Both the position numbers and the translations under genes were made by a program. Positions 3,001-16,952 of a stretch of 32,448 nt of DNA are shown here, one piece after another. A model generated the notes under the pieces. That model saw only the letters and a program-made list of their open reading frames with translations. It was not told the DNA's origin and ran no database searches. This DNA comes from Peptococcaceae bacterium (GTDB lineage Bacteria; Bacillota; Peptococcia; Peptococcales; Peptococcaceae): contig JAFYPD010000015.1 of the NCBI GenBank assembly GCA_017547685.1, forward strand, positions 1 to 32,448. Direction: 5' to 3'. How positions within the stretch are numbered: position 1 is the stretch's first letter; each line of letters opens with the position of its first letter.

Positions 3001-3825
3001 ATACAGTCTGGTTCTACCGTAACCACATAAGATGTTGTTACAGTTTCAGTTTCTACATGATTATCATCTTTTGTACAAGTTCTGCTTGCTGTACAGGTTG
3101 TTTTATCATCACTCCAGCTGTAAGTTGGATTTCCAAAAGCATGACCTGCTGCATCCAGAATTTCTGTTACACTCTGCGCGGTAAATAGATTATTCTCAAA
3201 TGTAGCAGTATAAGTGATTTCCCCTTCTTCTGTACAGGTTGCATCTTTTGTTGCAATTGTAATGCTTCCAGCTTCGGTAACAATGTCGCCACAGTGGCAA
3301 ATCGCTGTTGCATTACATGCTGTATAACCTTCCCATTCGTAAGTCACGTTGTAGTTATGACCTGCCGCTGTGATTTCTACTGTTTTTGTCTGTGTTGTTA
3401 CCCAGTTTACATCACTGTTGAATGTAGCGGTATAAACAGTAGAACCTGCAGCATTACAGGTTGCATTGACTGTTTCCGATGTTACAGTTGCTGTTACTGT
3501 TTCCACATGACTTGCATCATTCGCACAAGTTCTGCTTGCCGTACAGCTATTGTTGTCTTCACTCCAGGTATAAACGGCATCACCGTAATTATGACCCTTT
3601 GCTGGAATTGTTTCTTCTTTTGTCTGAGTTGTTAAACCTTCTGCTGTAAAAGCAGCAGTATAAACGATTTTACCAGCATTATCACAAGTTGCAGCTTTTG
3701 TGCTGCTTGTGATAGTTGCATCTTGATTATCTACATGACTAGCATCATTTGCACAGGTGCGTGTTGCTGTACATGCTGTATAATCAGTCCATGTATAAGT
3801 TGCAGTTCCCCATGCGTGGCCTAAT
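1..3825 (-). repeat. Array of about 17 degenerate GH-x-Y / cysteine modules in the surface protein
   Basis: Translated on the minus strand, this region repeats a module of roughly 60-75 residues. Each opens with GH (sometimes NH or DH) plus a Y/F-containing G-rich start, then an aromatic strand ending in W, then CTA-x-R-x-C, a histidine-valine stretch ending in a Thr/Glu-rich strand, then a further CT..G and a YTATF-type strand ending in QTK. I count about fifteen long modules and two or three short ones (around 840-1000) lacking the W strand. Copies have diverged at the DNA level, so this looks like an old expansion. The last module is cut by the window edge. The paired cysteines in each module suggest disulfides or metal sites, which is inference. 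Confidence 0.85.
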
Positions 3826-6800
3826 GCAGGAATTAGTTCATCCTCAATGGTACGCGAACAATCCAAACAAATCCAATCACCGGTGTGACCCGGTTCTTCG
3901 CAAGTTGCCTCTTTCTCTGCTACAGCACCTTCCTCCGTAGATGCTTTCTTGTTAGTATGCTGACAGGTCACCCATTCACTGTCACCATCTCCGTCAGCAT
4001 CTTTATAATCGAAACTTTTCGCTGTTGCAATCCCGGCAGTTTCTGTGTAACTTCCATCTTCATTCAACAATTTTGCAGAAGTAATCGGGATTTCTGTATA
4101 ACCAGTTCCTTGAACCAACTGATATGTTTTCGTTTCCTGACCAGATTTAATATTTGCTGTAGCCCCATTTTTACCGACAATAGCGGCTCCGCCTGCTGTA
4201 GTATAAATCCCACCGTTAGAAGCATCTAAAGTACCAGCTGCTACAATTTTCGCATCTACTAAATCAGCTGCTGTACGAGTATAAGCCTGACCTGGTGCAT
4301 ACTGAACAGGAATAAATGTTTTATTACCTGGGCCACAGTAATTGCCCCATTCATCCGCATCGTAAATATACACATTATATCCATTGCCTAAAGTACAGTT
4401 TGCACCTTTTTCCACATTAATCTCGGAACCAGGCAGCATTGCAATATCCTGATTCATAATTACTGTAGAACCACCGTGAATATTTACAGTGATATTACTG
4501 TTAATTGGCAGTTCATAGTCTTTCGAATTAATAGAAGATGTTCCCACCTTCATATCAATCGGAGACATTGCCATTTTTCCATATAATTCTACTAACAGAC
4601 GGTCTGTTGTTTCGGCATAATCTTTCACAACATAACCTTCCGTCAAATTAAACATAGTTCCACTGGTACCAATAAATCCAACAGCAGAACCAAATGCAGA
4701 GCTAGACATATAAATAGTTGTATAGCTATATTCCGTAGCACCGGAGTACAGTGTCATGGGAACTTCAATATTTTGCACATAATACTGACTTAATGCAAAT
4801 ACGCCATTATCCATATCCGTACTTTGAGTACCACCACGGAAATCAGTAATCTGGAACATTTCATAAACAGATGCTCCGCTGTTTGCTGTTATGCTACCAG
4901 AATCGGTAATGTAACCATATGCATATAGTGCACCACCATTGTTTACAACAATACTACTGTCGCCCTGCATTCGTATAAAGCTGACTGGCCCTGTTGGAGC
5001 ACCACCATCCAGCTTACTCCCTGCTGCATATTTATGTTTTGCGGATAAACTCAGTGCGCCATTAACAGTTAATGTTGCACCATCTTCTAGAGTTAATGTA
5101 CGATATGCGCTTGGTGTAGCATACGTACCTGTACTGCAAGAAGCCGTAGTATACAAAGTATTTACATCATCAAATGGAATCAATAATGTTACGCCAGAAG
5201 GGATTGTATAATCCCCTGCTGGTAATGTTGCATTATTCAGCAACACCACATATTTTTCGCTCGACGAGCTGGCATAATCCATGGCTTCAGCCATTGTATC
5301 AAATAAATGTGTAGTACCTACTTCATAATAAGTAACTGTTGTTGCTAATAAACCTGCAATCCCATCAGCATCTTTGTAGGTTTTAGTTGCTACTCCCCCC
5401 ACACCGAACCATGGTGTACCGCCATCTTTAGCAAATACTGCTTTCACAGTCATATCTGCTGCCGGGATTAACGTATAAGATGCTTCTTTAGATAAAATTC
5501 TATCATCAGCTGCATCTACCCAGCCTAAGAATGTAACTCCGCTTGCAGGCGTTGCAACAAGAGTCGCGCCAGTAGAGGTATTAAGTTCTTTTACTTCATT
5601 AACTACAACAGCTGCATCATCAACTGTAATACTCCCTAATGTATTGTCATATTCAAATGTCACATTAGCGCTTGCAGCTGCAACTGCACAACTGAAATTA
5701 TTCATTACAAGTTCATTCTCTGTGCTATTCTTTGCAGTTGTAATTGTTACAGTAAACGTTGCATTTGCAGCTAACACTTTAGAAAAACTACCGGAGGTTC
5801 CTGAATATACAACACCATCAATCATTAACTGATTAACAGAAGTAGCTGTCCAGTCAAACGATATAGTTGCTGTTGCATCAGAATCATTTGTTATTGTAAT
5901 AGTTGCAGTTTTGGCAGAAGCACCAAGTCCAATAAACCCACTACTACCTTTAGCTGTAACAGTTACTGCTCCACTAGACATGCTGTTATCTGATGCTCCA
6001 GAAACGGTAACAGTTACACCTTCAACAGGAGTATGTGTACCGCTTGCAGCAAAGAAACTAACAGAGAAGAGCTCCTGCATAGTATCATAAAACTGACCGA
6101 ATATCTGTGCATTCTCAGTTTCGTTAATCAGCTCAAGTTCTTCCGCTGTTAATTTAACGACTAAAGGTTCTAAAGCGGCTAAATCTGCATCTATTGCATC
6201 AAGAGTAGAGCCGTCCATTGCAATAATCACATTTTGCAATTCTTTTTTAGACATATCCGGCGTTATGCCATATCTTGATAAGAAATCCTCAACAGCTTTC
6301 TCCACTTCATAGTACGCTTCGCTCAGTTCTTCCGGCTGTTCTTTTGCCTCTAATGCGGCTTTGAACGCGGAGATTGCTGTACTGTTTTCGGCCCAGGCTG
6401 CTGCATCTTCTTCGCTCAGCAATGCTGCCTGTGCTTCTACTTCTGCAATGGCTGCCAGGGCTGCCTGTACGGTATCCTGATCCATTACTTCTACTGCTGC
6501 CTGGATTTCTTCAGCAGTCGGGTTTGCGTTCCCAACATAAGTTGTAAACAGGGCTGCTGCTGCATCCTGCACCTGTGCCAGGGTTACAGTTTCTTCTGGC
6601 TGTTCCAGTGCTGCAGCGGCTTCTTCTAATGCTGCTTTGAAATCTGCTAAAATTGCATACTGTTCTTCAAAGGCTGCATAGTCTTCTTCGCTCAGCTGAG
6701 CTGCCTGTTCGTCCAGGTTTTCCATGTCTGCCAGAATTGTCTGAACGGTTGGGGCATCTAATGCTGCTACTGCTGCTTTGATGCTTTCTTCGTCAATCAG

Positions 6801-7337
6801 TTCTGCCAGTGCTGCTTCCAGTTCTTCTGGTGCAGGGTTTTCCAGCATCAGGCATGCTGCTAAAATTGCATCTGCCTGTGCGGTTACTGCTTCCAGTGTT
6901 ACTGGTTCTGCAGGCTGTTCTTCTTCGGTTTCGCCTTCGCCATCGGCTTTGCCGTCACCATTTCCGGTTTCGCCTTCGCCATTAGCTGTGCCATCACCGT
7001 TTCCGGTTTCGCTTTCACTATCGGTTGTGCCGTCACCTTCAGTGGTTGCGTCACTATTTTCAGTGCTGCCACCTTCAGTGGTTGCATCACTGGTTTCAGT
7101 GCTGTCACCTTCGGTGGTTGCATCACCGGTTTCGGTACTGTCACCACTTGCGATTCCTCTCCCCCCCTCGGTTGCGGAATCTGCTGCACTATCCGATGTG
7201 CTCACGACTGTTTCTATGCTGTGGTCGTGCCCTTCATGGCTGTCGGTTTCCGCAAAGGCCTGTACCGGCACAATGGTAAACAGCATGAAAAACAGCAGCA
7301 TATACGAAACATATCGTCTTGCCTGTTTTGTAAACAT
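1..7337 (-). CDS. Giant secreted repeat-rich surface protein, C-terminus beyond window
   Basis: One frame stays open from ATG 7337 to the left edge, about 2445 codons; I read it through and found no stop. A strong GAGGAGG site precedes the ATG. Residues 1-29 are a signal peptide (basic start, hydrophobic core, cleavage after AFA). Residues 30-148 are an acidic Thr/Gly/Glu linker with short tandem repeats. Residues about 149-430 are Ala/Glu/Gln-rich and probably helical bundles. From about 432 come beta-rich domains, including an InlB-B/Listeria-Bacteroides-like stretch (GWVDAADD ... DMTVKAVF), then a beta-solenoid-like part to about residue 1120. The rest is an array of about 65-residue GH-x-Y modules. 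No SLH domain or sortase motif is visible in the part present, so the anchor may lie beyond the window. It follows the glycan locus by 134 bp. Function unknown; adhesin or envelope-coat protein is plausible. Confidence is high for the gene, low for role. Confidence 0.9.
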   Translation of the reverse strand, partial: MFTKQARRYVSYMLLFFMLFTIVPVQAFAETDSHEGHDHSIETVVSTSDSAADSATEGGRGIASGDSTETGDATTEGDSTETSDATTEGGSTENSDATTEGDGTTDSESETGNGDGTANGEGETGNGDGKADGEGETEEEQPAEPVTLEAVTAQADAILAACLMLENPAPEELEAALAELIDEESIKAAVAALDAPTVQTILADMENLDEQAAQLSEEDYAAFEEQYAILADFKAALEEAAAALEQPEETVTLAQVQDAAAALFTTYVGNANPTAEEIQAAVEVMDQDTVQAALAAIAEVEAQAALLSEEDAAAWAENSTAISAFKAALEAKEQPEELSEAYYEVEKAVEDFLSRYGITPDMSKKELQNVIIAMDGSTLDAIDADLAALEPLVVKLTAEELELINETENAQIFGQFYDTMQELFSVSFFAASGTHTPVEGVTVTVSGASDNSMSSGAVTVTAKGSSGFIGLGASAKTATITITNDSDATATISFDWTATSVNQLMIDGVVYSGTSGSFSKVLAANATFTVTITTAKNSTENELVMNNFSCAVAAASANVTFEYDNTLGSITVDDAAVVVNEVKELNTSTGATLVATPASGVTFLGWVDAADDRILSKEASYTLIPAADMTVKAVFAKDGGTPWFGVGGVATKTYKDADGIAGLLATTVTYYEVGTTHLFDTMAEAMDYASSSSEKYVVLLNNATLPAGDYTIPSGVTLLIPFDDVNTLYTTASCSTGTYATPSAYRTLTLEDGATLTVNGALSLSAKHKYAAGSKLDGGAPTGPVSFIRMQGDSSIVVNNGGALYAYGYITDSGSITANSGASVYEMFQITDFRGGTQSTDMDNGVFALSQYYVQNIEVPMTLYSGATEYSYTTIYMSSSAFGSAVGFIGTSGTMFNLTEGYVVKDYAETTDRLLVELYGKMAMSPIDMKVGTSSINSKDYELPINSNITVNIHGGSTVIMNQDIAMLPGSEINVEKGANCTLGNGYNVYIYDADEWGNYCGPGNKTFIPVQYAPGQAYTRTAADLVDAKIVAAGTLDASNGGIYTTAGGAAIVGKNGATANIKSGQETKTYQLVQGTGYTEIPITSAKLLNEDGSYTETAGIATAKSFDYKDADGDGDSEWVTCQHTNKKASTEEGAVAEKEATCEEPGHTGDWICLDCSRTIEDELIPALGHAWGTATYTWTDYTACTATRTCANDASHVDNQDATITSSTKAATCDNAGKIVYTAAFTAEGLTTQTKEETIPAKGHNYGDAVYTWSEDNNSCTASRTCANDASHVETVTATVTSETVNATCNAAGSTVYTATFNSDVNWVTTQTKTVEITAAGHNYNVTYEWEGYTACNATAICHCGDIVTEAGSITIATKDATCTEEGEITYTATFENNLFTAQSVTEILDAAGHAFGNPTYSWSDDKTTCTASRTCTKDDNHVETETVTTSYVVTVEPDCIEKGEATYTATFKNTGLGSDTKKVDIDALDHDYNVTYEWAADNSSCTATWTCNRENCDAKDTETVTAEIEETTKVSCTADGLTTYTADFTNEKFVDQTKEVTIKSEGHQYGEVTYDWNTENPDAVTCTASKTCKVCDSATEGYKLTATGAVTIDKDASVSATCTTAGKTVYTATFNVEWATGDKTEVTVTAYNHDYTAVEYKWSEDYATCTATRVCNHDSNHVETQTVTADEKSKTDATCTEKGKVVFYADFTDYGFVDQSKTVEIPETGHNYGAPEYIWDTIGEVASCTAVKECIACATTVSGHTVSETGEVVVDTEKSEAADCTNAGKIVYNAVFTDKDFEAQTTEKTVPALNHDYTNAEISYIWSANYDSCTASRNCVRTTCTHADTENATITINVINATCTEDGKTVYKATFKNTAFAEQTKEVAIGQTGHAYGGVSYVWSEDNSECTATRVCANNAAHVETETVKSTSETTDASCTENGKTVYKAVFENTAFADQTKEVTITASGHVYGEAEYDWNVAEDGTVTCIANKACEKCDAETTGNVVTENALIYEDESESKAATCVESGQKVYLAVFSEAFENQKHTVEIDAIGHLYGETSYIWDETDKENITCTATRSCTRTTCNAGIENHVETETVAVIVNVTDEAQCLTNGAATYISEEFVNTAFAKQTKDVVLTALGHDLVYEGGTAATCLEEGTHAGAYCSRCDYTEGGGVIQALGHSWGKETIIKVATCLEAGEKQYTCTRNCCDNVTKTEPISALGHEYGTVTYTFSEDYTLCTAERHCVRTTCNDSVEGHTQQETTLVTEDVKTKATCSNPGQTVYTAVFYEYPDVFGTKVSSRILPATGHAYGEPEYAWNEDNSECIATMVCANDANHVVSEKAVITSKTTAAGCNAAGKVEYTATFTNEAFEVQKAEKVLEAAGHSYGKASYEWGKDAEGNVICIATMVCTKCTEGEEGRVVSEEAEVTSETTDATCTGNGKTVYTATFTNTAFTVQTK
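6933..7142 (-). repeat. Short tandem repeats coding an acidic Thr/Gly linker
   Basis: In the surface protein, residues 66-101 are three tandem 12-residue units of type DSTETSDATTEG (36-bp DNA repeats), and residues 110-135 are two 13-residue units of type ETGNGDGTANGEG (39-bp repeats). Units differ by a few bases. Both unit lengths are multiples of three, so copy-number change would lengthen or shorten the linker without breaking the frame. It lies between the signal peptide and the helical domain. Confidence 0.85.
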
Positions 7338-7471: not shown

Positions 7472-8527
7472 TCATGGTTTTAGTTTTGATACAACCCTCT
7501 CGATTGTTGCTTTCAGACCGTTTTCCTGTACATGCTGCAAAATACGTCGAACAACATATGTCTGCCTTGATTTTACCCTGCCATGTTGTTGAATATACAA
7601 ATACTCTTTCCACTCACTCTGGCTATAAAAATACGAAGCTGGATACTGTTCTAAACCAAGTAATTTAAAATAATTGTTCCCCATCTCAGAAGCAAGTTTA
7701 TCTTTTGAATCATCTTTCAATGTGTGCAAATTCCAAAGCAGAAAATGCAGTGACCAGTTCACAAAGCTTTGTTCAACTGCTTCATACTGATTACGTTTTT
7801 TCAGTTCCTGCTGAATAGCATGGGTTGCTTTCCAGCAGCAATCCCAAGACTTTTCCCTTGTAACAGATAACGCTGCCTTATTACTTACGCGATGATGTGC
7901 CAATATTTCATCAACAATTGTAATTCTAGCTGCCTGTACACTTGCCATATATACAAAAAATGCATCATTTGTGGTACGTAGTCCCTGAAACTGCAACCCT
8001 GTGTTTTCTATAAAGTCACGTCTATACAATTTATCCCATGACCAGCCATTAAAAATCTGAAAAATATGCGGGTAAATTTCCGATGACTTAAACGGAATCT
8101 GTTTCGGTAAATACTGTTTTTTTATCGTCCACGGAATCGGTTCATACTTCTGGATCTGAGTGTCATACCGGTCTGAGCGAAACACACAAATATCCGCATT
8201 ATCTTTTTCACATTGCAGATATGCCTTTTCCAGCATGTCCGGCTCAAAAAAATCATCGGAATCAAGAATAGAAAGATATTCTCCACGAGCAATTTTCATC
8301 CCTATATTGCGTGCCGTGCCAGCACCCGCATTTTTCTGCTGCAATACAATTATTTGATTATCTTTACCTTCATATTCCTGTAGAATATTATAAGAATCAT
8401 CTGTTGAACCATCATCCACACAGATAATTTCAATATCCCGCAATGTCTGGTTAATGATACTATCTAGACACTGCGGTAAATACTGGGCAACGTTATAAAC
8501 AGGAATAATCACTGAAACTTTTTTCAT
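7472..8527 (-). CDS. Family 2 glycosyltransferase (GT-A fold)
   Basis: The 351-residue product starts with MKKVSVIIPVYN, a classic GT2 opening, followed by CLDSIINQT (about residues 20-28), VDDGSTD (about 37-43), the AGTARNIG strand (about 70-77) and LDSDDFF (about 91-97), whose DxD-type acidic pair binds metal and the nucleotide sugar. The C-terminal part is typical of capsule and teichoic acid transferases and has no clear membrane segment. It begins 3 bp after the carboxyethylornithine synthase gene and is the last gene of the glycan operon. Donor and acceptor sugars cannot be told from sequence; in context it would add a sugar to the exported acidic glycan or its linkage unit. Confidence is high for family, low for substrate. 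Confidence 0.93.
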   Translation of the reverse strand: MKKVSVIIPVYNVAQYLPQCLDSIINQTLRDIEIICVDDGSTDDSYNILQEYEGKDNQIIVLQQKNAGAGTARNIGMKIARGEYLSILDSDDFFEPDMLEKAYLQCEKDNADICVFRSDRYDTQIQKYEPIPWTIKKQYLPKQIPFKSSEIYPHIFQIFNGWSWDKLYRRDFIENTGLQFQGLRTTNDAFFVYMASVQAARITIVDEILAHHRVSNKAALSVTREKSWDCCWKATHAIQQELKKRNQYEAVEQSFVNWSLHFLLWNLHTLKDDSKDKLASEMGNNYFKLLGLEQYPASYFYSQSEWKEYLYIQQHGRVKSRQTYVVRRILQHVQENGLKATIERVVSKLKP

Positions 8528-8530
8528 TTA

Positions 8531-9499
8531 CTAAATTAAACCCCTATTACTACGAAACTCCGTAATTCTTTCATCAATAATAGTTCCATCTTCGATTACC
8601 ATTGCAGCACTCATCATTTCATCCCACTCACCTGTAATCAACGGATCAATTAATGGGGTGATTTTCTGACTTAAAATGTTAGTTACAGTGTGCGGATACA
8701 TGGCAGGCGTATTATCTACTGCATAATGAATAACATTATCAACTACATAAACCGGATTATCAATTGTTGTTGCTTTACTGGTTTCAATTTCTAAATTCGG
8801 ATCGCAGCTTACATCGATAATCATTGTCCCTTTTTTCATTTTTTTCAGGTCGGAACGATAAATTAAACGATCCTTACGGCTGGTATCCCATAAAACACAG
8901 TTTACAATCACATCGTAGTTATACATATTCTTTTTGAATAATTCTTCATGTTTATGTGGATAAACCTCTACATCAGCCCCCAAACCATTCAAAAAGCGAA
9001 TTGCACCTTTTGCAGTCTGTCCATTCCCAATAACTGCTACTTTTGTTTCATATGGCATTTTCCCGCAGTATTGATACGCCTGTAAAATAGCCGCTTCGCC
9101 TGCTATCTCTCTGTTGCGCCACAGTAAATAACGCCCATATTCATATAACTCTTCCCAGGCTACGACTGTATGATGATGCTTTAACACGGATGTAGTAAAA
9201 TCCAGATTTTGTACTGCATGTGCCCAGCCGAACAGAATTTTATTATCATCAATTAATTCCAGATAATCGGCATCACCCAGTTTTACATCTACAATAATAT
9301 CCTGTTTTAAAGCTTCTTCTCGGGATACTATCTTAGCACCCATTTTAGCATACTCGCTATCGTCAATACCTAATACATGCCCATAGCCTTCTTCAATATA
9401 ACAGGCTCCTATATGTTCTATCTGCATCATATCTTTCGGCAGCAGAGCACGTCGTTTTTCATTATTTTTATGACTTACAACAAAGCCAACCGTTTTCAT
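8531..9499 (-). CDS. ceo: N5-(carboxyethyl)ornithine synthase homologue (AlaDH/PNT family)
   Basis: Family members reductively condense pyruvate with the side-chain amine of ornithine (or lysine) using NADPH, giving N5-(1-carboxyethyl)ornithine. The product matches this subfamily of the alanine dehydrogenase/PNT superfamily over its length: MKTVGFVVSHKNNEKRRALLP at the start, IEEGYGHVLGIDDSEY, GWAHAVQN (about 92-98), WRNREIAGEAA (about 127-137), a Rossmann loop GNGQTAKGA (about 158-166), then VNCVLWDTSRKDR and IDVSCDPNLEIETSKATT. Length is 322 residues, close to the 310-320 expected. I chose ATG 9499; a TTG at 9520 would add seven residues that overlap the upstream stop and have no family counterpart. 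Its place between an ATP-grasp ligase and a GT2, in a uronic acid locus, suggests its product is a glycan substituent rather than a free metabolite. Lysine instead of ornithine as substrate is equally possible. Confidence 0.85.
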   Translation of the reverse strand: MKTVGFVVSHKNNEKRRALLPKDMMQIEHIGACYIEEGYGHVLGIDDSEYAKMGAKIVSREEALKQDIIVDVKLGDADYLELIDDNKILFGWAHAVQNLDFTTSVLKHHHTVVAWEELYEYGRYLLWRNREIAGEAAILQAYQYCGKMPYETKVAVIGNGQTAKGAIRFLNGLGADVEVYPHKHEELFKKNMYNYDVIVNCVLWDTSRKDRLIYRSDLKKMKKGTMIIDVSCDPNLEIETSKATTIDNPVYVVDNVIHYAVDNTPAMYPHTVTNILSQKITPLIDPLITGEWDEMMSAAMVIEDGTIIDERITEFRSNRGLI

Positions 9500-9516
9500 G
9501 TAAATCTCATCTTCTT

Positions 9517-10407
9517 TCAAATTGTTAAGTTCACTAAATTGCCAAACATTATGTCTGTTTCTTTCAATCTGTTTGCGTCCAGCCCGGCAGCTGGCGTAAA
9601 TGTCAATTCTCCGAATATTGGTTTATTATTTACGATATAAAAATCCACTCGCACAAACGGAAATGGCTCAGATAAATCTTCCGCTGAGCGAAGCAATTCC
9701 TGCAAACAGTCCGGTTTTCCAAAGGAAGGAACGCCTACTGCGTTGATACTGTCGGGATTAATTCTTTGAAACTCCCAATTCGAATTAAAAAAATAAAACT
9801 TTCGGTCTGTAATTTTATTGTCACACACTAGAATATAAAGAGCTTTTCCATGAAAGCAGTAAACCTTATAATCTGCAATCGGTGTATGATCTGCATTTTC
9901 CAGATATTTCTCACAAATTATTTTCTTTTCAATATGTTTATAATTGAGTTCTGCTTTTTTCTTCCAGAAATCTTCTTCATACCACTTTTTAATTTGATTT
10001 AGCACTGCAGTTTTATTCAAAGCAGTCTTATCAGAACAGATAATATTGTAACCACAACCATGATTACACTTTAAAACAAACTGATTGGGAAGTTTCTCCC
10101 AGTCAATTTGCGAAGGACTATCCCATACATCATACAAGTTATTTAACAAATCTTCATGATGCTTTTCTATCACATAGTCACGTACCTTATATTTGTCTGC
10201 ACACATTGTTATCAGTGAATTATTATTGTAATCATTCAATTTTAACCACATTATTTTTTCATTTAACGTGCGAGGTTCTTTTAAATTTAAAACCCTGTGA
10301 AATTTTTGCAAATATAAAATATGCGTCGCCAAAACAGGCGAATACCCAGAGATAACCTCAATAAACTTCCCATAGCCCTTTTTTAATAAATCCCTTGCAG
10401 TTACCAT
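9517..10407 (-). CDS. TupA-like ATP-grasp ligase, copy 1 (short form)
   Basis: A 296-residue protein of the TupA-like ATP-grasp family, named for the teichuronopeptide gene of alkaliphilic Bacillus. Recognisable blocks are RTLNEKIMWLKL (46-57), CADKYKVRDYV (69-79), LPNQFVLKCNHGCGYN (106-121, nucleotide-binding lysine and loop), ADYKVYCFHGK (178-188), FPFVRVDFY (249-257) and FGELTFTPAAG (265-275, metal-binding acidic end). ATP-grasp enzymes form an amide via an acyl-phosphate, so the expected role is coupling an amino acid to a carboxyl group such as glucuronate. It lacks the roughly 55-residue N-terminal extension of copies 2 and 3. ATG 10407 has no good ribosome site of its own; a small frame with a strong site ends across it, suggesting translational coupling. 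Substrate is unknown. Confidence 0.88.
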   Translation of the reverse strand: MVTARDLLKKGYGKFIEVISGYSPVLATHILYLQKFHRVLNLKEPRTLNEKIMWLKLNDYNNNSLITMCADKYKVRDYVIEKHHEDLLNNLYDVWDSPSQIDWEKLPNQFVLKCNHGCGYNIICSDKTALNKTAVLNQIKKWYEEDFWKKKAELNYKHIEKKIICEKYLENADHTPIADYKVYCFHGKALYILVCDNKITDRKFYFFNSNWEFQRINPDSINAVGVPSFGKPDCLQELLRSAEDLSEPFPFVRVDFYIVNNKPIFGELTFTPAAGLDANRLKETDIMFGNLVNLTI

Positions 10408-10475
10408 TTCCGATTGTACCGTCTTTTCTTCTGTTCCAGATTATTATGCTTAATTGCAAGTCCAACTTTCTGCAT
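10401..10475 (-). pseudogene. 24-codon frame resembling the N-terminus of the CeoS homologue
   Basis: Directly downstream of a strong AAGGAGA site (about 10481-10487) lies ATG 10475 and a frame of 24 codons ending in TAA at 10401-10403. Its start, MQKVGLAIKHNNLEQKKRR, lines up with the start of the CeoS homologue in this window, MKTVGFVVSHKNNEKRR: M, VG, a hydrophobic triad, H, N and the K-R-R motif agree when two or three residues are gapped. Downstream resemblance stops at KRR. The stop overlaps the ligase start as ATGGTAA, so it could be a remnant of a second ceo gene that now serves as a translation-coupling leader for the ligase. A chance match is possible because the segment is short. 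Confidence 0.5.
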
Positions 10476-10493
10476 ACAAATCTCCTTACAGTT

Positions 10494-11573
10494 TTAAATT
10501 TCCACATTTGCCTTAGGGAGCGTCAAATATTCCCCAAATCGATTATCCCACTCTTCAAAGTATGTGTTAAAACCGCCTCCCGGAGAAAATGTTAATTCGC
10601 CCACATATATTTTTCCATCTACCTCATAAAAATCAACTCTAACAAGAGGAAATGGCACTGCTAATTTTTCAGCAATTTCCAACATTTTATAAAAAGAACT
10701 TGTTTTCTTAAAGTTTTCTGTAGTTACAAAACTATTAGGGGAAGGCTGTATACAATTTCCATCCAAATCATAATTGATATATTTTGTTTTTGTTTTTCTA
10801 TCTTTACAAACTAAAAAATGTTTGCAAATCCCATTATAACAATAGAACTTATAATCAATTATTTCCCCAGAAGATGGTTCTAACAATTCTTCAGCTATGA
10901 TACGCGGAGGAATATCTTTGCTATCCCATTCAAAACTTTGATAGTAATAATTGTTCCATGGTTGTAACCAATTACTAAGCATTGCCTTGGTTTTATGAAT
11001 GTCTAAAGATTTTTTGTTTTTTACAAGAATATTCTGCAAATCCCCCCAACCCCAGGTAGACTTGATTGCAAAACTATTCGGCAATTTATCAAAATCGATA
11101 TCATTTACATTGTCCCATACTCCGTATAAAGGTACAACGTACTCATCCCCTACAATTTCACGTATATACTCTTTAACAGAAAACTTATCGACACATTTCG
11201 TCATTAATGGATCGTGATAATAAATTCTCATCCATTGCATCTTTTCATTTAAACTTTTCGGATGATCTAAATTAGGAAATCTTCCAATAACAGAATAATA
11301 CATTTGTTCAACGACCCATCGACGGATTGGAAGACCGTCTTGCTTCTCTAATAGATAGTTATAAATACGCTTGTTATAAAGGTACTCTTGGGTCACAGGA
11401 TAAATAACATCCATTTGTTTTTTTGTATTTACATTTTTCTCAGTATTTTCTGTATTATCCAGCATATATGGTATCTGGTTATCAACTTCACTTGCAACTT
11501 TATATAATTTACCTATATACATTTTAGCTTTAGCAGAATTTTGTAATATTTTTTTAACCTGTTTTTTTATCAA
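10494..11573 (-). CDS. TupA-like ATP-grasp ligase, copy 2 (long form)
   Basis: A 359-residue member of the same family. After a basic, variable N-terminal extension of about 100 residues come HPKSLNEKMQWMRI (104-117), CVDKFSVKEYI (127-137), LPNSFAIKSTWGWG (ATP-binding strand, about 164-177), IIDYKFYCYNG, VPFPLVRVDFYEVDGK and YVGELTFSPGGGF. The start is TTG 11573, chosen for the ideal GAGGAGG site eight bases upstream; no ATG is near. It sits 18 bp after copy 3. Compared with copy 1 the nucleotide-binding loop reads STWGWG in place of CNHGCG, so the copies differ near the active site and probably in substrate. The gene is visibly richer in A/T than the neighbouring division genes, in keeping with a transferred surface-polymer locus. 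Expected activity is ATP-dependent amide formation on a uronic acid or a growing peptide branch. Confidence 0.88.
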   Translation of the reverse strand: MIKKQVKKILQNSAKAKMYIGKLYKVASEVDNQIPYMLDNTENTEKNVNTKKQMDVIYPVTQEYLYNKRIYNYLLEKQDGLPIRRWVVEQMYYSVIGRFPNLDHPKSLNEKMQWMRIYYHDPLMTKCVDKFSVKEYIREIVGDEYVVPLYGVWDNVNDIDFDKLPNSFAIKSTWGWGDLQNILVKNKKSLDIHKTKAMLSNWLQPWNNYYYQSFEWDSKDIPPRIIAEELLEPSSGEIIDYKFYCYNGICKHFLVCKDRKTKTKYINYDLDGNCIQPSPNSFVTTENFKKTSSFYKMLEIAEKLAVPFPLVRVDFYEVDGKIYVGELTFSPGGGFNTYFEEWDNRFGEYLTLPKANVEI

Positions 11574-11591
11574 AGTAACTGCCTCCTCTTT

Positions 11592-12665
11592 TTAAATATT
11601 TGCAGTTGGTAAAGTTATTAAATCTCCCAATTTATAATCCCACTCCAGTGGTTCAAACGTTTCATAACCACCACCAGGATAAAATGTCAATTCTCCAACA
11701 TATACTTTCTTTTGATCACTAGATTCATAAAAATCCACTCTAACAAAAGGAAAAGGTTCGCATAGTTTTTGAGCCAGCTCAACCATTAAATCAAAGTTTT
11801 TAGGTTTCTTAATTTCATAACTTGTATTTGGATATTTACGTGTAAACGGTAACAAATTCCAGTCAAGATCATAGAAATTTACACACATTTGTTTATCTCT
11901 ATCAGCAACAATAAACAACATCTCAACCTTCCCATTAAAGCACATAAATTTGTAATCCAACAACGCACCACCATCCAGTGCATCTATATATTCTTCAGCA
12001 AGTATTCTTGGTTTAACATTTTTGTATGCACTACAATAAGATGAACACAATGTATTTCTAGGTAATAACCACGAGCTCATTATTGTTTTTAAATTATCTA
12101 TATCTAACTGTTCTTTATCTTCCACTACAACAATATGACGGCCATCACTTTGAACCGTTGACTTCAAAACGAATTTTTGCGGAAGCGCAGAAAAATCAAT
12201 TTGATTTTCATCATCCCAAACACCATAAAGGGGCACTGTATAACCATCCCCCAAGACTTCTTTAACATATTGTTTGAACTCGGCCTTATCAACACAACGA
12301 GCTTCCTTAGAATCATAGTAATTCAATTTTAACCATTGAAGTTTCTGATTAAATGTTTTTGGATTGTCCAAATCCAAATAATACTTACAATTATTGTAAA
12401 AAATCCGCTTTAATTCTCTTGACCTTTCTTCTTTTGTCAAAAATTTCGAATTCAAATAATCGATTGAATGGCCACTATAGGTTACTTTATCTGACACCAA
12501 TACCCCCATTTTCTTATTTTTAGGACTTAATGAAACGGGATCAGGCGATGAATTATCAGGGAAAGATGCATTATATAGTCGATAAATAATCTTTCGACAT
12601 CTACTTGATTTCTGTATTATTTTCTTAACTGTTTTTTTCAATATTTCTTTCATATTATTTTTCAT
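11592..12665 (-). CDS. TupA-like ATP-grasp ligase, copy 3 (long form)
   Basis: A 357-residue family member and the first of three tandem ligase genes. A basic N-terminal extension (many Lys/Arg in residues 1-30) and a linker are followed by NPKTFNQKLQWLKL, CVDKAEFKQYV, LPQKFVLKSTVQSDGRHIV (nucleotide-binding strand and loop), LLDYKFMCFNGK, EPFPFVRVDFY and YVGELTFYPGGGY. The catalytic framework is complete, so it is probably active. ATG 12665 has GGAGG at good spacing. It begins 52 bp after ugd and ends 18 bp before copy 2; the C-termini of copies 2 and 3 share the GD/GE-x-LTLP-x-AN ending, so these two are closest to each other, while copy 1 is more distant. Amino acid and sugar acid substrates are unknown. 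Confidence 0.88.
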   Translation of the reverse strand: MKNNMKEILKKTVKKIIQKSSRCRKIIYRLYNASFPDNSSPDPVSLSPKNKKMGVLVSDKVTYSGHSIDYLNSKFLTKEERSRELKRIFYNNCKYYLDLDNPKTFNQKLQWLKLNYYDSKEARCVDKAEFKQYVKEVLGDGYTVPLYGVWDDENQIDFSALPQKFVLKSTVQSDGRHIVVVEDKEQLDIDNLKTIMSSWLLPRNTLCSSYCSAYKNVKPRILAEEYIDALDGGALLDYKFMCFNGKVEMLFIVADRDKQMCVNFYDLDWNLLPFTRKYPNTSYEIKKPKNFDLMVELAQKLCEPFPFVRVDFYESSDQKKVYVGELTFYPGGGYETFEPLEWDYKLGDLITLPTANI

Positions 12666-12717
12666 TATTTTTCCTCCTGTTTTTTAAACAACTTATCCTT
12701 TTGACATATTGCCATTG

Positions 12718-14019
12718 TTAACGCCCAATCGATTCATATATGACTCCTAGTTCTTTCATTTTCTCTGTTTCAAAGCAATTACGCCCATCTAAGATAATCG
12801 CTTTTTTCATCGTTTGAAATACTTGTAAGTCTAATGCTTTCACGTCCGCCCATTCAGTAAAGATAAAGCAGAGATCTGCATCATTTAATGCTTCTTCTGG
12901 TGTGGCATAGTATACAATATTGTTTGTATTACAATCGGCTTTCTCCATAACTTTCTGAAAATTCTCTACCCCTACTGCATCCCATGCATGGATAGTAGCT
13001 CCTTCATCTAACAATATTGGTACATTTACTAGAGATGGAGCTTCACGCAAATCATCTGTGTCTGGTTTGAAGGTTAGCCCTAGTACTGCTACGGTTAATC
13101 CATCAAAACTTTCGTAATATTTTCTTGCTTTCTTCAATAGTTTTATTTTTTGTAATTCATTTACTTCAATGGCTGCTTTGACAGTTTTTATCTCATAATC
13201 ATGAAAGTTTGCCAGCCAGTGCAATGCTTTTGTATCCTTTGGAAAACAGCTGCCGCCATATCCTATCCCTGCATTTAAAAACTGATTCCCAATACGAGGA
13301 TCCAAACCCATACCAGCAGTTACATCCTGAATATCTGCTCCCACCAGTTCACACAAATTAGCAATTTCATTTACATACGAAATTTTCAAAGCCAGAAAAT
13401 CGTTGGATGCGTATTTGATCATTTCTGCAGAGCGCCGGTTTGTCACCAGTATTGGCGATTCAAAACCTGCATACACTTCTTTTAATACTGCTTCTGCATG
13501 TTCACTTTCCACACCCAGCACAATGCGGCTGGCATACAGTGTATCGCTCACGGCTGTCCCCTGCGCCAGAAATTCCGGATTACTGGCCACTTCCAGAGTC
13601 ACATCATGCACTTTTTCTTTCTGCAGGATAGCCTCTACCTTGTCATTGGTACCGATTGGCACGGTAGATTTTACTACTACAATGCAGTTTTTTTCCGCAC
13701 TCTGTGCAATCTGTTTTGCTGATTCATATACATAAGTCAGATTCGCAGATCCGTCTTTTTTCTCCGGCGTGCCTACCCCAATAAAAATAACCTCAGCATC
13801 TTTATACGCATTCTGATAATCCGTTGTATAGGTTAAACGCTCCGCATGTTGCTGCATTAAATCTTCTAAATCTTTTTCATAAATAGGGCTTTTTCCGCTC
13901 TGCAGCATCTTTATTTTAGTTTCATTCAAATCTACACAGGTTACGGTATGCCCTTTATGCGCCAGGCAAACAGCTGTCACCAGCCCCACATAGCCTGTCC
14001 CTGCAACGGCTATTTTCAT
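12718..14019 (-). CDS. ugd: UDP-glucose 6-dehydrogenase
   Basis: The enzyme oxidises UDP-glucose twice with NAD to UDP-glucuronate in the cytoplasm. The 433-residue product has the N-terminal Rossmann motif GTGYVG (7-12), the GVGTPEKKDG loop (81-90), KSTVPIGT (117-124), NPEFLAQGTAV (147-157), and the catalytic block GYGGSCFPKD with the nucleophilic cysteine at about 258. The C-terminal UDP-binding domain contains VLGLTFKPDTDDLREAPS. Length is normal. It lies 8 bp after the ABC ATPase gene and just before the three ATP-grasp ligases, which points to glucuronate as the carboxyl-bearing sugar of the polymer made here. A UDP-N-acetylmannosamine dehydrogenase is the main alternative in this family, but the motif set fits Ugd better. 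Confidence 0.95.
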   Translation of the reverse strand: MKIAVAGTGYVGLVTAVCLAHKGHTVTCVDLNETKIKMLQSGKSPIYEKDLEDLMQQHAERLTYTTDYQNAYKDAEVIFIGVGTPEKKDGSANLTYVYESAKQIAQSAEKNCIVVVKSTVPIGTNDKVEAILQKEKVHDVTLEVASNPEFLAQGTAVSDTLYASRIVLGVESEHAEAVLKEVYAGFESPILVTNRRSAEMIKYASNDFLALKISYVNEIANLCELVGADIQDVTAGMGLDPRIGNQFLNAGIGYGGSCFPKDTKALHWLANFHDYEIKTVKAAIEVNELQKIKLLKKARKYYESFDGLTVAVLGLTFKPDTDDLREAPSLVNVPILLDEGATIHAWDAVGVENFQKVMEKADCNTNNIVYYATPEEALNDADLCFIFTEWADVKALDLQVFQTMKKAIILDGRNCFETEKMKELGVIYESIGR

Positions 14020-14027
14020 TGCAATCC

Positions 14028-14756
14028 CTACTTTTTCATATATTTCTCGTACATATCACACATGGTTTTCGTGTCCCCGATGCCACGCATTTCACCTTTT
14101 TCCAGCCATACAACCTGCGTACACAATTCTCGCACCTGGCTTAAAGAATGAGATACCAGTATCGTAGTAGTACCGCCGCTCATCATCTCGCGCATACGCG
14201 CTTCACTTTTTCTGCGAAATGCCATATCACCAACCGAAAGCACCTCATCTAAAACCAGAATATCCGGGTTTACACGGCTGGCAATAGAAAACGCAAGTTT
14301 GCTGCGCATACCGCTGGAAAGCTTTTTATACATGACATCCTCAAACTCTTTTAGTTCTGAGAATTCAATTATTTTTTCATATTCATCTTTCACAAAGTCC
14401 CGCGTATACCCCAGTAATGCACCACGCAGGTAAACATTTTCTTTTACCGTTAAATCACCGTCAAAACCGGCACCTAATTCTAACAAAGCCGCAACAGAGC
14501 CATTTGCTTTGATACTCCCTTTTGTAGGAGGCATAATACCTGCCAGCACTTTTAAAATAGTAGATTTGCCGGAACCATTGCTGCCGACAATCCCTAACAT
14601 TTCTCCTTTGTTTACATGAAAACTTACATCACGCAATGCCCATAATTCTTTTTTTACAAGCTGGCCTTTTGCTTTTTTTATTAAATATTCTTTCAGACCA
14701 ATATCTTTGAAGTCTCCCAAAACATATCTAACGGAAACATTGTTTACATTTATCAT
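14028..14756 (-). CDS. ABC exporter ATPase for surface polysaccharide (Wzt/TagH type)
   Basis: ATP-binding subunit of a polysaccharide or teichoic acid exporter. In 242 residues it shows Walker A GSNGSGKST, the Q-loop region ELGAGFDGDLTVKENVY typical of polysaccharide exporters, the signature LSSGMRSKLAFS, Walker B ILVLDE, and switch histidine VSHS. It ends right after the nucleotide-binding domain and so lacks the carbohydrate-binding C-terminal domain of O9a-type Wzt; it resembles the short KpsT/TagH form. ATG 14756 follows GGAGC. It lies 11 bp downstream of its permease and 8 bp upstream of ugd. Export of a glycan assembled in the cytoplasm is expected. Confidence 0.94.
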   Translation of the reverse strand: MINVNNVSVRYVLGDFKDIGLKEYLIKKAKGQLVKKELWALRDVSFHVNKGEMLGIVGSNGSGKSTILKVLAGIMPPTKGSIKANGSVAALLELGAGFDGDLTVKENVYLRGALLGYTRDFVKDEYEKIIEFSELKEFEDVMYKKLSSGMRSKLAFSIASRVNPDILVLDEVLSVGDMAFRRKSEARMREMMSGGTTTILVSHSLSQVRELCTQVVWLEKGEMRGIGDTKTMCDMYEKYMKK

Positions 14757-14767
14757 TACGTCAGCTC

Positions 14768-15550
14768 CTATACGTAATACAGGAATTTATAATTATATTT
14801 TTTGTACATCCAACAGCCGATAGCGAATAAAAGCACAGATACTGCCAGCATTGCACCATGAAACCATAATGCCGGTATCACACCGTCAATTACCACACTG
14901 CGGAAATAGGTTACATAATAATACAGCGGGTTCAGATAAAAAATCCATCGCTGGCCAGGCTCCAGTATATCCACCGTATAAAAAATCGGGGTAGCGTACA
15001 TCAAAGCCAGTGTAAATACACTGTACAAATACTGAATATCTTTAAAAAAAACAAACAGTGCTGAAAGAATCAAGCCAATACCGCAAATGAAAACAAACAT
15101 ACATGCAACTGGATATAACAGCGTAATAAACTTCCAGGTAATCGGCAATTTATAAGCAATTACAAATACAAAATATACAACCAGCGTTAAAAAGAAATTA
15201 ATACTGCTGGAAGCAACACGCGAAAATAAAAACATATATTTCGGCACTTTTACTTTAGAGAAAATATATGCATTAGACATTAACGAATTCATCGCGCCAT
15301 TGGTGGCATCATTGTAGTATTGATAAATCAGCCATCCAGAAAATAGATAAATCGTATAGTACTCCTGGGTGCGGCCAAAGAAATTTCCAAATATAAAATT
15401 CATCACTAACATTGTCAGCAATGGAGCCAGCATACTCCACAGCACACCTAGAAAACTGCGTTTATATTTCTTTTTGAAATCCCGTTTTACTAACTCAGCA
15501 AATACGAATTTATAACGCTTATATAATTTAACTAAATTCAAGTTTTTCAC
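14768..15550 (-). CDS. ABC-2 polysaccharide exporter permease (Wzm/TagG type)
   Basis: A 260-residue membrane protein with the ABC-2 export fold. The cytoplasmic amphipathic start contains LVKRDFKKKYKRSFLGVLWS, a hallmark of TagG/KpsM/Wzm permeases, followed by about six hydrophobic segments, for example LAPLLTMLVMNFIFGNFF, FFLTLVVYFVFVIAY and MLAVSVLLFAIGCWM. The conserved NPLYYYVTYFRS motif is present before the last segment. The start is GTG 15550, with an AAGG site overlapping the stop region of the upstream gene. With the ATPase next to it, it should move the finished or undecaprenyl-linked glycan across the membrane. Confidence 0.93.
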   Translation of the reverse strand: MKNLNLVKLYKRYKFVFAELVKRDFKKKYKRSFLGVLWSMLAPLLTMLVMNFIFGNFFGRTQEYYTIYLFSGWLIYQYYNDATNGAMNSLMSNAYIFSKVKVPKYMFLFSRVASSSINFFLTLVVYFVFVIAYKLPITWKFITLLYPVACMFVFICGIGLILSALFVFFKDIQYLYSVFTLALMYATPIFYTVDILEPGQRWIFYLNPLYYYVTYFRSVVIDGVIPALWFHGAMLAVSVLLFAIGCWMYKKYNYKFLYYV

Positions 15551-15558
15551 TTACCTTT

Positions 15559-16449
15559 TTATTTCAGTTTTTTTAACACATATCTCGCACACCGGCTTAC
15601 CATGCTGCGCCGTTTTGTGCCGGGCGGCAATACCATATTCACCAGTTTCATGCGCTGCAGGCCGCCTTTGCTGCCATCCATGTTTGCAAAGTGTACGCGG
15701 CTGAGTTCACAGCTTTTTATGTTACCCTGTTGTTTCATGTGCGTGTACCAGATACCGAATAACCGCTCTGCCAGATAGCCGTCTACACGCATGGCAGCTT
15801 TATTGCCATTATATTTATTCCAGCTATTGCGATGGTCAAATTCCTCTAACAACGGAAACAGCCAGTTACAATACGCATGGAAATGCTCATGTCTCATGAT
15901 ATACATATTTTTTAAATACAGCCGGGTATTGCTCAGATATTGTTCCACTGCATTTTTATAATCCGGATGCAGTTCTTTCACCAGATTGGCCGCCAGCTGC
16001 AAATCTTCCATATAGTGATGCGGTGCACGGCTGTAGTTTTCCCACACCGTTTCATACATATTTTCTGCTGCCGGCACAATGATGTCGTACTGGCTGATCA
16101 ACTGTTCCATCTGCTCTGGTGCACAATTCATACGCCGCAAGGTTACATCATCAGGAAAATCGTAAATCATATATGGGTGTTTCTCTGTATGAAAGCTGAA
16201 ATACCGTCGATAATGATAAAATCCGTAATAATCCGCCTGTTCGTTCTTCCACACCCAATACTGGCCGGTTAATTCACAGTAGGAATTATTTTTTGCGGAA
16301 ATATTATCTCCGGCATCATCGTGCAGAAATCCGTCCAGAGGGCTGTGCAAAGCTGTGCCAATCTGCAATGGTTTCAATAAAGGATGTTCTGGCACATATG
16401 TCTGTTTATGCGTTGCTACATATATTCTGATATCTGCCAAACTGTCCAC
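15559..16449 (-). CDS. DUF4422 glycosyltransferase-like protein
   Basis: First gene of the glycan operon; 296 residues. The N-terminal DIRIYVATHK and the central NSYCELTGQYWVWKN and YYGFYHYRRYF blocks are the signature of DUF4422 proteins, which occur in capsule and exopolysaccharide loci and are thought to transfer sugars. No signal peptide or clear membrane span is present; the C-terminus is basic, which may help membrane contact. The start is uncertain: GTG 16449 has AAGGG only one base away, whereas TTG 16440, three codons in, has the same site at a better 9-base distance. The gene ends 8 bp before the permease. Donor sugar unknown. Confidence 0.85.
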   Translation of the reverse strand: MDSLADIRIYVATHKQTYVPEHPLLKPLQIGTALHSPLDGFLHDDAGDNISAKNNSYCELTGQYWVWKNEQADYYGFYHYRRYFSFHTEKHPYMIYDFPDDVTLRRMNCAPEQMEQLISQYDIIVPAAENMYETVWENYSRAPHHYMEDLQLAANLVKELHPDYKNAVEQYLSNTRLYLKNMYIMRHEHFHAYCNWLFPLLEEFDHRNSWNKYNGNKAAMRVDGYLAERLFGIWYTHMKQQGNIKSCELSRVHFANMDGSKGGLQRMKLVNMVLPPGTKRRSMVSRCARYVLKKLK

Positions 16450-16497
16450 ACCCTTTTATCCGATAAAGCATCTTTTTGCATCATTCCAGAAATAAAA

Positions 16498-16526
16498 TCT
16501 ATAATCCATTCTTTTCTGTTTTACAA
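16498..16526 (-). promoter_or_regulatory. Putative promoter of the glycan operon
   Basis: On the minus strand TTGTAA (16521-16526) and TATAGA (16498-16503) are 17 bp apart, giving a leader of about 40-50 nt before the DUF4422 start. A second possible pair further upstream is TTGGAA and TAAACT near 16555-16585, also 17 bp apart. Both match the vegetative consensus at only 4 of 6 positions in each element. Confidence 0.4.
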
Positions 16527-16615
16527 TTTGCGGATTTTAGATATTAGTTTTAGTTTATCACAATTTATCCGTATTTCCAATATGTTTTTGTATTTACGGA
16601 ATCTATAAGCAAAAT

Positions 16616-16663
16616 AAAAAGACTGCCGCTATATCAGAATTGACATAGACGGCAGTCTTTTTT
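16616..16663 (-). terminator. Strong intrinsic terminator, works in both directions by shape
   Basis: The arms AAAGACTGCCG (about 16618-16629) and CGGCAGTCTTT (about 16649-16660) form an 11-bp or longer stem with a loop of about 19 nt, flanked by A-runs on the left and T-runs on the right. On the minus strand it closes the transporter/DUF1540 unit and separates it from the glycan operon. Confidence 0.9.
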
Positions 16664-16692
16664 ATGCATTTCTTATTCTGTTTTGTTACCGC

Positions 16693-16857
16693 TTATTTCA
16701 GTACGAAGGACTGGCAGTCGGTGCACTGTTTTTCGGTTGGATTTGCTTCGTGGGTGCCTACCTGAATTTCACGCAGGGAGCAGTAGTTCTGGCCCTGTGC
16801 GTGGTGTCTGCACTGCTGCACGGTACATTTGATACTCTGGTTAATCTGACCTGTCAT
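16693..16857 (-). CDS. Small DUF1540 cysteine-rich protein (54 residues)
   Basis: ATG 16857 has a perfect AGGAGG site eight bases upstream and the frame runs 54 codons to TAA. The product begins MTGQINQSIKCTVQQCRHHA, then has NYCSLREIQVG and ends CTDCQSFVLK. The pattern C11-x4-C16 ... C26 ... C45-x2-C48 followed by SF fits DUF1540, a short family common in anaerobic Bacillota, usually thought to bind metal through its cysteines. Function is not known. It follows the AEC transporter by 95 bp and is followed at once by a strong terminator. It was too short to stand out as a gene by length alone, but the ribosome site and motif make it convincing. Confidence 0.88.
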   Translation of the reverse strand: MTGQINQSIKCTVQQCRHHAQGQNYCSLREIQVGTHEANPTEKQCTDCQSFVLK

Positions 16858-16952
16858 GGTTTTCTACCTCCTGAATTTTTAATTTGGTGATACAGGCATT
16901 AGTATGGACAGGTTGCAATGTTTTATACGCATGATAAAAAAGTCTGAATTTT

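Follow-up and report, generated by a model that had tools for sequence, protein, structure and literature searches.

What does a bacterium build with a gene for an opine synthase that sits among genes for a surface glycan? We analyzed a stretch of 32,448 nucleotides (here, the window) from a gut-type Peptococcaceae bacterium (assembly GCA_017547685.1, contig JAFYPD010000015.1), in which a run of nine genes, read from 16449 to 7472 and all on the minus strand, is packed with intergenic distances of -4 to 86 nucleotides. An earlier reading of the bare sequence (the original prediction) had listed a UDP-glucose 6-dehydrogenase (Ugd), three TupA-like ATP-grasp ligases, a homolog of N5-(carboxyethyl)ornithine synthase (CeoS), a GT2 glycosyltransferase, a DUF4422 protein, and a Wzm/Wzt-type exporter, and every gene was found where it had been placed. 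On present evidence the run probably builds a wall or capsule glycan, exported by an ATP-binding cassette (ABC) transporter, in which an opine-type amino acid is amide linked to a uronic acid. This overall inference, made originally from gene content, is supported and gains weight from a conserved pairing of CeoS with TupA-like genes. The features are, in the direction of the run:

16450-16952: 503-nucleotide gap upstream of the run, where its promoter is expected
15559-16449, minus strand: DUF4422 protein opening the run, likely a GT111-type (WbbM N-terminal) glycosyltransferase (PF14393, E 3e-72)
14768-15550, minus strand: ABC-2 polysaccharide exporter permease, Wzm/TagG-like (PF01061, ABC2_membrane, E 6e-18; NF050109, 71 bits, below cutoff)
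14028-14756, minus strand: ABC exporter ATPase, TagH/Wzt-like, 242 amino acids, without a C-terminal extension (PF00005; NF010066, 201 bits, below the cutoff of 320)
12718-14019, minus strand: UDP-glucose 6-dehydrogenase, Ugd/TuaD-like, the source of UDP-glucuronate (PF03721, PF00984, PF03720)
11592-12665, minus strand: TupA-like ATP-grasp amidoligase 1 (PF14305, 200 bits; invariant residues kept; tree)
10494-11573, minus strand: TupA-like ATP-grasp amidoligase 2 (PF14305, 173 bits; invariant residues kept; tree)
9517-10407, minus strand: TupA-like ATP-grasp amidoligase 3 (PF14305, 159 bits; tree; AlphaFold model), overlapping the listed CeoS open reading frame by 4 nucleotides
8531-9520, minus strand: CeoS-like opine synthase of the alanine dehydrogenase/pyridine nucleotide transhydrogenase (AlaDH/PNT) family (PF01262, 95 bits; PF05222; motif YAVDNTP; tree; AlphaFold model)
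7472-8527, minus strand: GT2 glycosyltransferase closing the run (PF00535, 136 bits)

The PF14305 cutoff is 25 bits. Ugd scores above the cutoff of its subfamily model (TIGR03026, 440.6 bits) and below that of the TuaD model (499 bits, cutoff 700).

Pairing of CeoS with ATP-grasp ligases

Is the neighborhood of CeoS and TupA-like genes peculiar to this window? Its conservation in other genomes had been set beforehand as the test on which the original prediction could fail, and it is conserved. One scan of genome contigs yielded 80 loci, of which 66 belong to the CeoS clade, and a TupA-like gene directly adjoins CeoS in 20 of these 66 (14 of 38 after collapse at 75% identity). An ATPgrasp_ST (PF14397-type) gene adjoins CeoS in 10/66, and a gene of one or the other type lies no more than two genes from CeoS in 27/66 loci (collapsed, 20/38). 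Of the 23 loci that have a TupA-like gene, 20 show it adjacent to CeoS versus 4.1 under random placement, and none of 100,000 shuffles gave a number as high. Chance co-occurrence is unlikely, because PF14305 is found in only 18 of 398 Bacillota genomes (∼4.5%); set against this prevalence, the adjacency has a binomial probability of 2.6e-12 for all loci and 2.5e-10 for the collapsed set. No TupA-like gene was present in the 24 alanine dehydrogenase loci, which are short.

The arrangement of the pair is also regular. With the window included there are 21 adjacent pairs, all 21 with both genes on the same strand, 17 with the ligase before CeoS, and 7 with a 4-nucleotide overlap. A Ugd-family gene lies within 10 kb in 9 of the 21 pair loci, compared to 2 of 45 others (Fisher test, 3e-4). 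Pairs were found in Clostridia, Bacilli, Bacteroidales, and Lentisphaeria; on the CeoS tree they are scattered, and the well-supported branches force at least 11 gains or losses. A metagenome-assembled genome of Oscillibacter (L049) holds a set nearly identical to that of the window: GT2, CeoS, TupA-like ligase, UDP-sugar dehydrogenase, ABC permease, and ATPase.

Other ATP-grasp families take the same position. A PF14397 ligase gene precedes CeoS in L044, L047, and L081, and a RimK-like ligase gene precedes it in L216, in two Escherichia coli plasmids and, weakly, in L071. On the E. coli plasmids (NZ_AP027746 and NZ_JCAPTY010000003; L027 and L224), the CeoS-type gene overlaps the RimK-like gene in a capsule cluster that also has a UDP-sugar dehydrogenase and an epimerase, a composition that would match the galacturonate-carboxyethyl-lysine linkage of the Providencia rustigianii O14 antigen, as a parallel and not as proof. 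Taken together, we lean slightly toward the view that CeoS and an adjacent ATP-grasp amidoligase form a mobile two-gene module for the decoration of surface glycans with N-(1-carboxyethyl)-ornithine or -lysine. Such a module would have been rebuilt with unrelated ATP-grasp families (PF14305, PF14397, and RimK-like) and would extend across Bacillota, Bacteroidota, Lentisphaerota, and E. coli plasmids.

Several observations weigh against our reading of the run. An adjacent TupA-like gene is absent from 46 of the 66 CeoS-clade loci, and all these counts come from a sample chosen through two short peptide patterns and are not an unbiased census. Stand-alone CeoS-clade copies occur in Planococcus, Listeria, and Erysipelotrichaceae, and since those of Planococcus and Listeria stand alone, the family as such is not bound to glycans. 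Conversely, none of 15 independently sampled TupA-like loci holds CeoS, from which it follows that PF14305 enzymes also use other amines. In the 398-genome sample, PF14305 is present in one of five CeoS-clade genomes, a number too small to count alone, and within the family the CeoS gene is confined to the source genome (1 of 13 genomes). The Lactococcus CeoS is just 32% identical to the window protein and sits on a long branch. Finally, gene content and order, the recurrent pairing, folds, and conserved catalytic positions are computed directly, and enzyme activity and glycan structure are what we infer from them.

Some CeoS-type genes have neighbors of other kinds. In L216 (8661-10699) and L215 (8282-10409), the CeoS-type gene stands beside a RimK-like gene (the neighbor in L215 looks alike) with no evident glycan locus. 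The protein P0001 had been a candidate for a TupA-like ligase; profile comparison did not support this, and it is RimK-like. In L043 (8845-10972), a PGA_cap (polyglutamate capsule) gene is followed by CeoS, with an ATP-grasp gene two genes off, and the product is perhaps another conjugate. In several Listeria species (L084, L088, L089, and L093), CeoS is immediately preceded by a large gene and one of the 4Fe-4S/radical-SAM type (PF13353 in L084); these neighbors are probably an anaerobic ribonucleotide reductase and its activase, in a conserved stand-alone placement.

The CeoS-like protein and its predicted product

Does the protein at 8531-9520 look like an opine synthase? Pfam and NCBIfam contain no model that names CeoS, and the NCBIfam matches of the protein, to alanine dehydrogenase and transhydrogenase, are all below cutoff; the name CeoS is therefore a prediction. 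A Lactococcus plasmid protein with the annotation N(5)-(carboxyethyl)ornithine synthase shares 32% identity with the window protein. The open reading frame was listed from a TTG at 9520; because homologs begin ("MKTVGF..") at the residue of an ATG at 9499, this ATG is the likelier start. No CeoS relative was found in viral contigs.

In a tree to which E. coli PntA was added for reference, alanine dehydrogenases and PntA part from all CeoS-like proteins, that of Lactococcus included, with support of 100/99; long branches meet in this tree (as the program warned), and its internal order is unsure. The C-terminal motif Y.VD[HN]TP follows the same division, present in 69 of 71 CeoS-clade proteins and in 0 of 24 alanine dehydrogenase hits. 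Four residues, R23, K80, H101, and D240, are invariant across 43 CeoS homologs, and they align with the known substrate and catalytic residues of alanine dehydrogenase, the keto acid-binding arginine being Arg15 in the Lactococcus enzyme. The window protein thus has both this arginine and the catalytic Lys, His, and Asp. Its AlphaFold model (predicted local distance difference test [pLDDT] score, 94.2) is a compact fold of the AlaDH/PNT type. Its best structural match is alanine dehydrogenase (Z 33.9 over 315 residues); saccharopine dehydrogenase, which couples a keto acid to the side-chain amine of lysine, is matched as well (Z 26.8). The sequence fits an opine synthase that would use a basic amino acid.

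Could the enzyme supply the ligases with a different amine, either by turning pyruvate and ammonia into alanine or by using another keto acid for a saccharopine-type product? Its two nearest folds and the four catalytic positions shared with alanine dehydrogenase would suit such an enzyme, but the well-supported split in the tree and the differing C-terminal motif set it apart; moreover, a true alanine dehydrogenase is present separately in the class, and alanine is available to any cell anyway. We regard this alternative as unlikely.

A second question concerns the order of the steps. The ligase might act first and put ornithine or lysine on the uronate, after which CeoS would alkylate the side-chain amine with pyruvate on the glycan or on a lipid-linked intermediate. 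This order fits the identical genes and neighborhood and does not require a free opine as an intermediate. The substrates of the Lactococcus enzyme, however, are free amino acids, and some members of the CeoS clade are encoded at a distance from any glycan genes, which makes a free CeoS product the simpler reading; nor does the compact model have an extra domain for gripping a glycan. The reversed order appears less probable still than the synthesis of a different amine.

Three ligases, the predicted glycan, and the chromosomal site

Which of the three ligases would use the CeoS product? All three keep the residues K113, E166, D179, K181, R253, D255, and E267, which are invariant in 27 PF14305 sequences, and they are the only PF14305 genes in the whole genome. 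Ligase 3, the one for which a model was made, has an ATP-grasp fold (pLDDT, 95.1) resembling D-Ala ligases, RimK, and LysX, with Z values up to 13.7 (D-Ala ligases); a sequence search of the PDB returned no TupA-like protein. In the ligase tree, ligase 3 groups (100/100) with the CeoS-adjacent ligases of L039, L049, L072, and L073, in a tree that took in ligases from CeoS loci only, so that exclusivity of this group to CeoS is not deducible. Ligases 1 and 2 belong to another group (98/98), shared with the ligase pair of L046 and the ligase(s) of L048. The idea that all three serve CeoS is rejected in view of this division into two clades. Ligase 3 alone is a member of the clade that most frequently adjoins CeoS; on the basis of the grouping, it is likely the ligase for the CeoS product, and ligases 1 and 2 probably handle another amine. 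The original claim that the ATP-grasp enzymes attach the CeoS product is accordingly retained for ligase 3 and given up for the other two. There is precedent for the chemistry: the TupA-like C-terminal domain of Campylobacter jejuni Cj1438 amidates glucuronate at C6 with serinol phosphate or ethanolamine phosphate (PMC11800379).

The pathway that we propose would run as follows. Ugd would make UDP-glucuronate, and glycosyltransferases (the DUF4422 and GT2 proteins, perhaps with enzymes encoded elsewhere) would insert glucuronate into the chain. CeoS would reductively couple pyruvate with ornithine or lysine at the side-chain amine, so that N5-(1-carboxyethyl)-ornithine or N6-(1-carboxyethyl)-lysine is formed. 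Ligase 3 (9517-10407), on the precedent of C. jejuni Cj1438C, would use ATP to activate the C6 carboxylate of the uronate and form an amide with the free alpha-amine of the carboxyethyl amino acid, while ligases 1 and 2 may attach one or two further amines, either on the uronate or on the side chain. The ABC pair would then export the glycan. Were the amide formed through the alpha-amine, two carboxylates and one secondary amine would remain, and the side group would be zwitterionic with a net negative charge.

What kind of glycan might this be? LpxC was found in none of the 13 genomes searched in the family, compared to 4 of 14 controls. A lipopolysaccharide (LPS) O antigen is ruled out by this absence, and the product should be a wall or capsule polymer, because the family lacks LpxC. 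The locus has both a Wzm/TagG permease and a Wzt/TagH ATPase, as expected of an ABC transporter-dependent surface polysaccharide, at scores that do not reach the equivalog cutoffs. No enzyme dependent on pyridoxal phosphate (PLP) and no phosphatase for serinol phosphate or ethanolamine phosphate was found within the run, to which that search was confined. DUF4422 has been described as a UDP-galactofuranose transferase fold with a link to GT111 (PMC12269835). Elsewhere in the genome there are two UDP-galactopyranose mutase (glf) genes and two WecA/TagO-type genes. Since this fold coincides with two glf genes, a heteropolymer of glucuronate and galactofuranose is possible. The original prediction had spoken of a glucuronate polymer; a pure one is not required, as the DUF4422 and glf genes allow galactofuranose.

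The Pfam scan found no polyglutamate synthase family among the run genes, and membership among teichuronopeptide systems is ruled out by this. That the three ligases put ordinary amino acids or short peptides on polyglucuronate, with CeoS as a metabolic passenger, is very improbable: Ugd and the TupA-like genes do recall the teichuronopeptide of Bacillus halodurans (PMC8153356) and CeoS does stand alone in Planococcus and Listeria, but CeoS/TupA-like adjacency recurs over three phyla, with 4-nucleotide overlaps, and the run has no gene for polyglutamate synthesis.

In the 503-nucleotide gap, promoter-like sites were not above chance (44 versus 37.5 ± 5.9 in shuffles), and none stands out. To the right of the gap lie a membrane transporter gene (PF03547), ileS, and further housekeeping genes. 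Guanine-plus-cytosine content is 0.31 to 0.34 in the ligase genes and 0.31 to 0.37 in the ligase and CeoS genes together (8531-12665), versus 0.49 in ileS and 0.51 in an ftsK-like gene; this content, well under that of the housekeeping genes, suggests that the ligase and CeoS genes were acquired from outside, perhaps recently. In the congeners G008 and G005, an ABC exporter, a dTDP-rhamnose cassette, and GT2 genes occupy the place next to the transporter and ileS (L211, 1759-9337; L212, 1198-8836), and in the congener G010 there are no glycan genes at this place. The interval next to ileS thus appears to be a variable glycan locus of the genus, in which the source species has a different cassette.

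On the other side of the run (window positions 3-7337, minus strand) lies a gene that is cut by the window end. Its secreted-type protein is at least 2445 amino acids long, with many repeats of ∼60 residues that have paired cysteines and "GHxYG" turns. A Pfam search with this protein gave zero matches, and a relative of it is present at the same site in G008 (L211).

Comparison with known systems

The original prediction had known of no described Bacillota system that combines these parts, and we found none in the open-access literature. That literature likewise yielded nothing on CeoS in glycan clusters and no paper in which genes are named for the synthesis and attachment of carboxyethyl-lysine amides on uronic acids. 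To our knowledge, no evident purpose has so far been assigned to the CeoS family, which is known from lactococci. If the two-gene module is real, it would give the family its main biological role and provide the first genetic basis for carboxyethyl-lysine glycans, and the pair predicts such groups on the surface glycans of many gut Clostridia and Bacteroidales. Zwitterionic or anionic amino acid decorations are the kind of feature read by immune lectins and phages. Amidated uronate surface glycans are already known, and a class of opine-decorated ones may have gone unnoticed.

The capsule of C. jejuni HS:2/HS:19 is exported by an ABC transporter. Like the glycan predicted for the window, it contains glucuronate whose C6 carboxylate is amidated by an ATP-grasp enzyme of the TupA-like kind (PMC11800379). 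There the amine, serinol phosphate or ethanolamine phosphate, is supplied by PLP enzymes and a phosphatase, and a GT2 and the ligase form one fusion protein, whereas the window has three separate ligases and a CeoS-like gene in place of the amine supply. The teichuronopeptide system of B. halodurans (TupA) shares with the window a PF14305 gene, glucuronate, and a Gram-positive wall polymer; its polymer carries polyglutamate, whereas the window run has no polyglutamate synthesis gene and does have CeoS and an ABC exporter.

The L. lactis CeoS belongs to the same enzyme family as the window protein, with 32% identity and a common NTP motif region, but it is a stand-alone metabolic gene outside any glycan locus. 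The E. coli cluster (L027 and L224) resembles the window in its CeoS-type gene overlapping an ATP-grasp gene with a UDP-sugar dehydrogenase nearby, and it differs in its RimK-like ligase and Wzx/Wzy-type polymerization. The closest chemical parallel is the P. rustigianii O14 antigen, in which carboxyethyl-lysine is amide linked to galacturonate (PMC10609480). As predicted for the window, a uronate is amidated there by the alpha-amine of N6-(1-carboxyethyl)-lysine; it is, however, a Gram-negative LPS O antigen, known here from its structure only, and the window genome lacks LpxC. Carboxyethyl-lysine amides of uronic acids are thus known chemically from Gram-negative O antigens, and the conserved pair of CeoS and ATP-grasp genes links them to the CeoS family.

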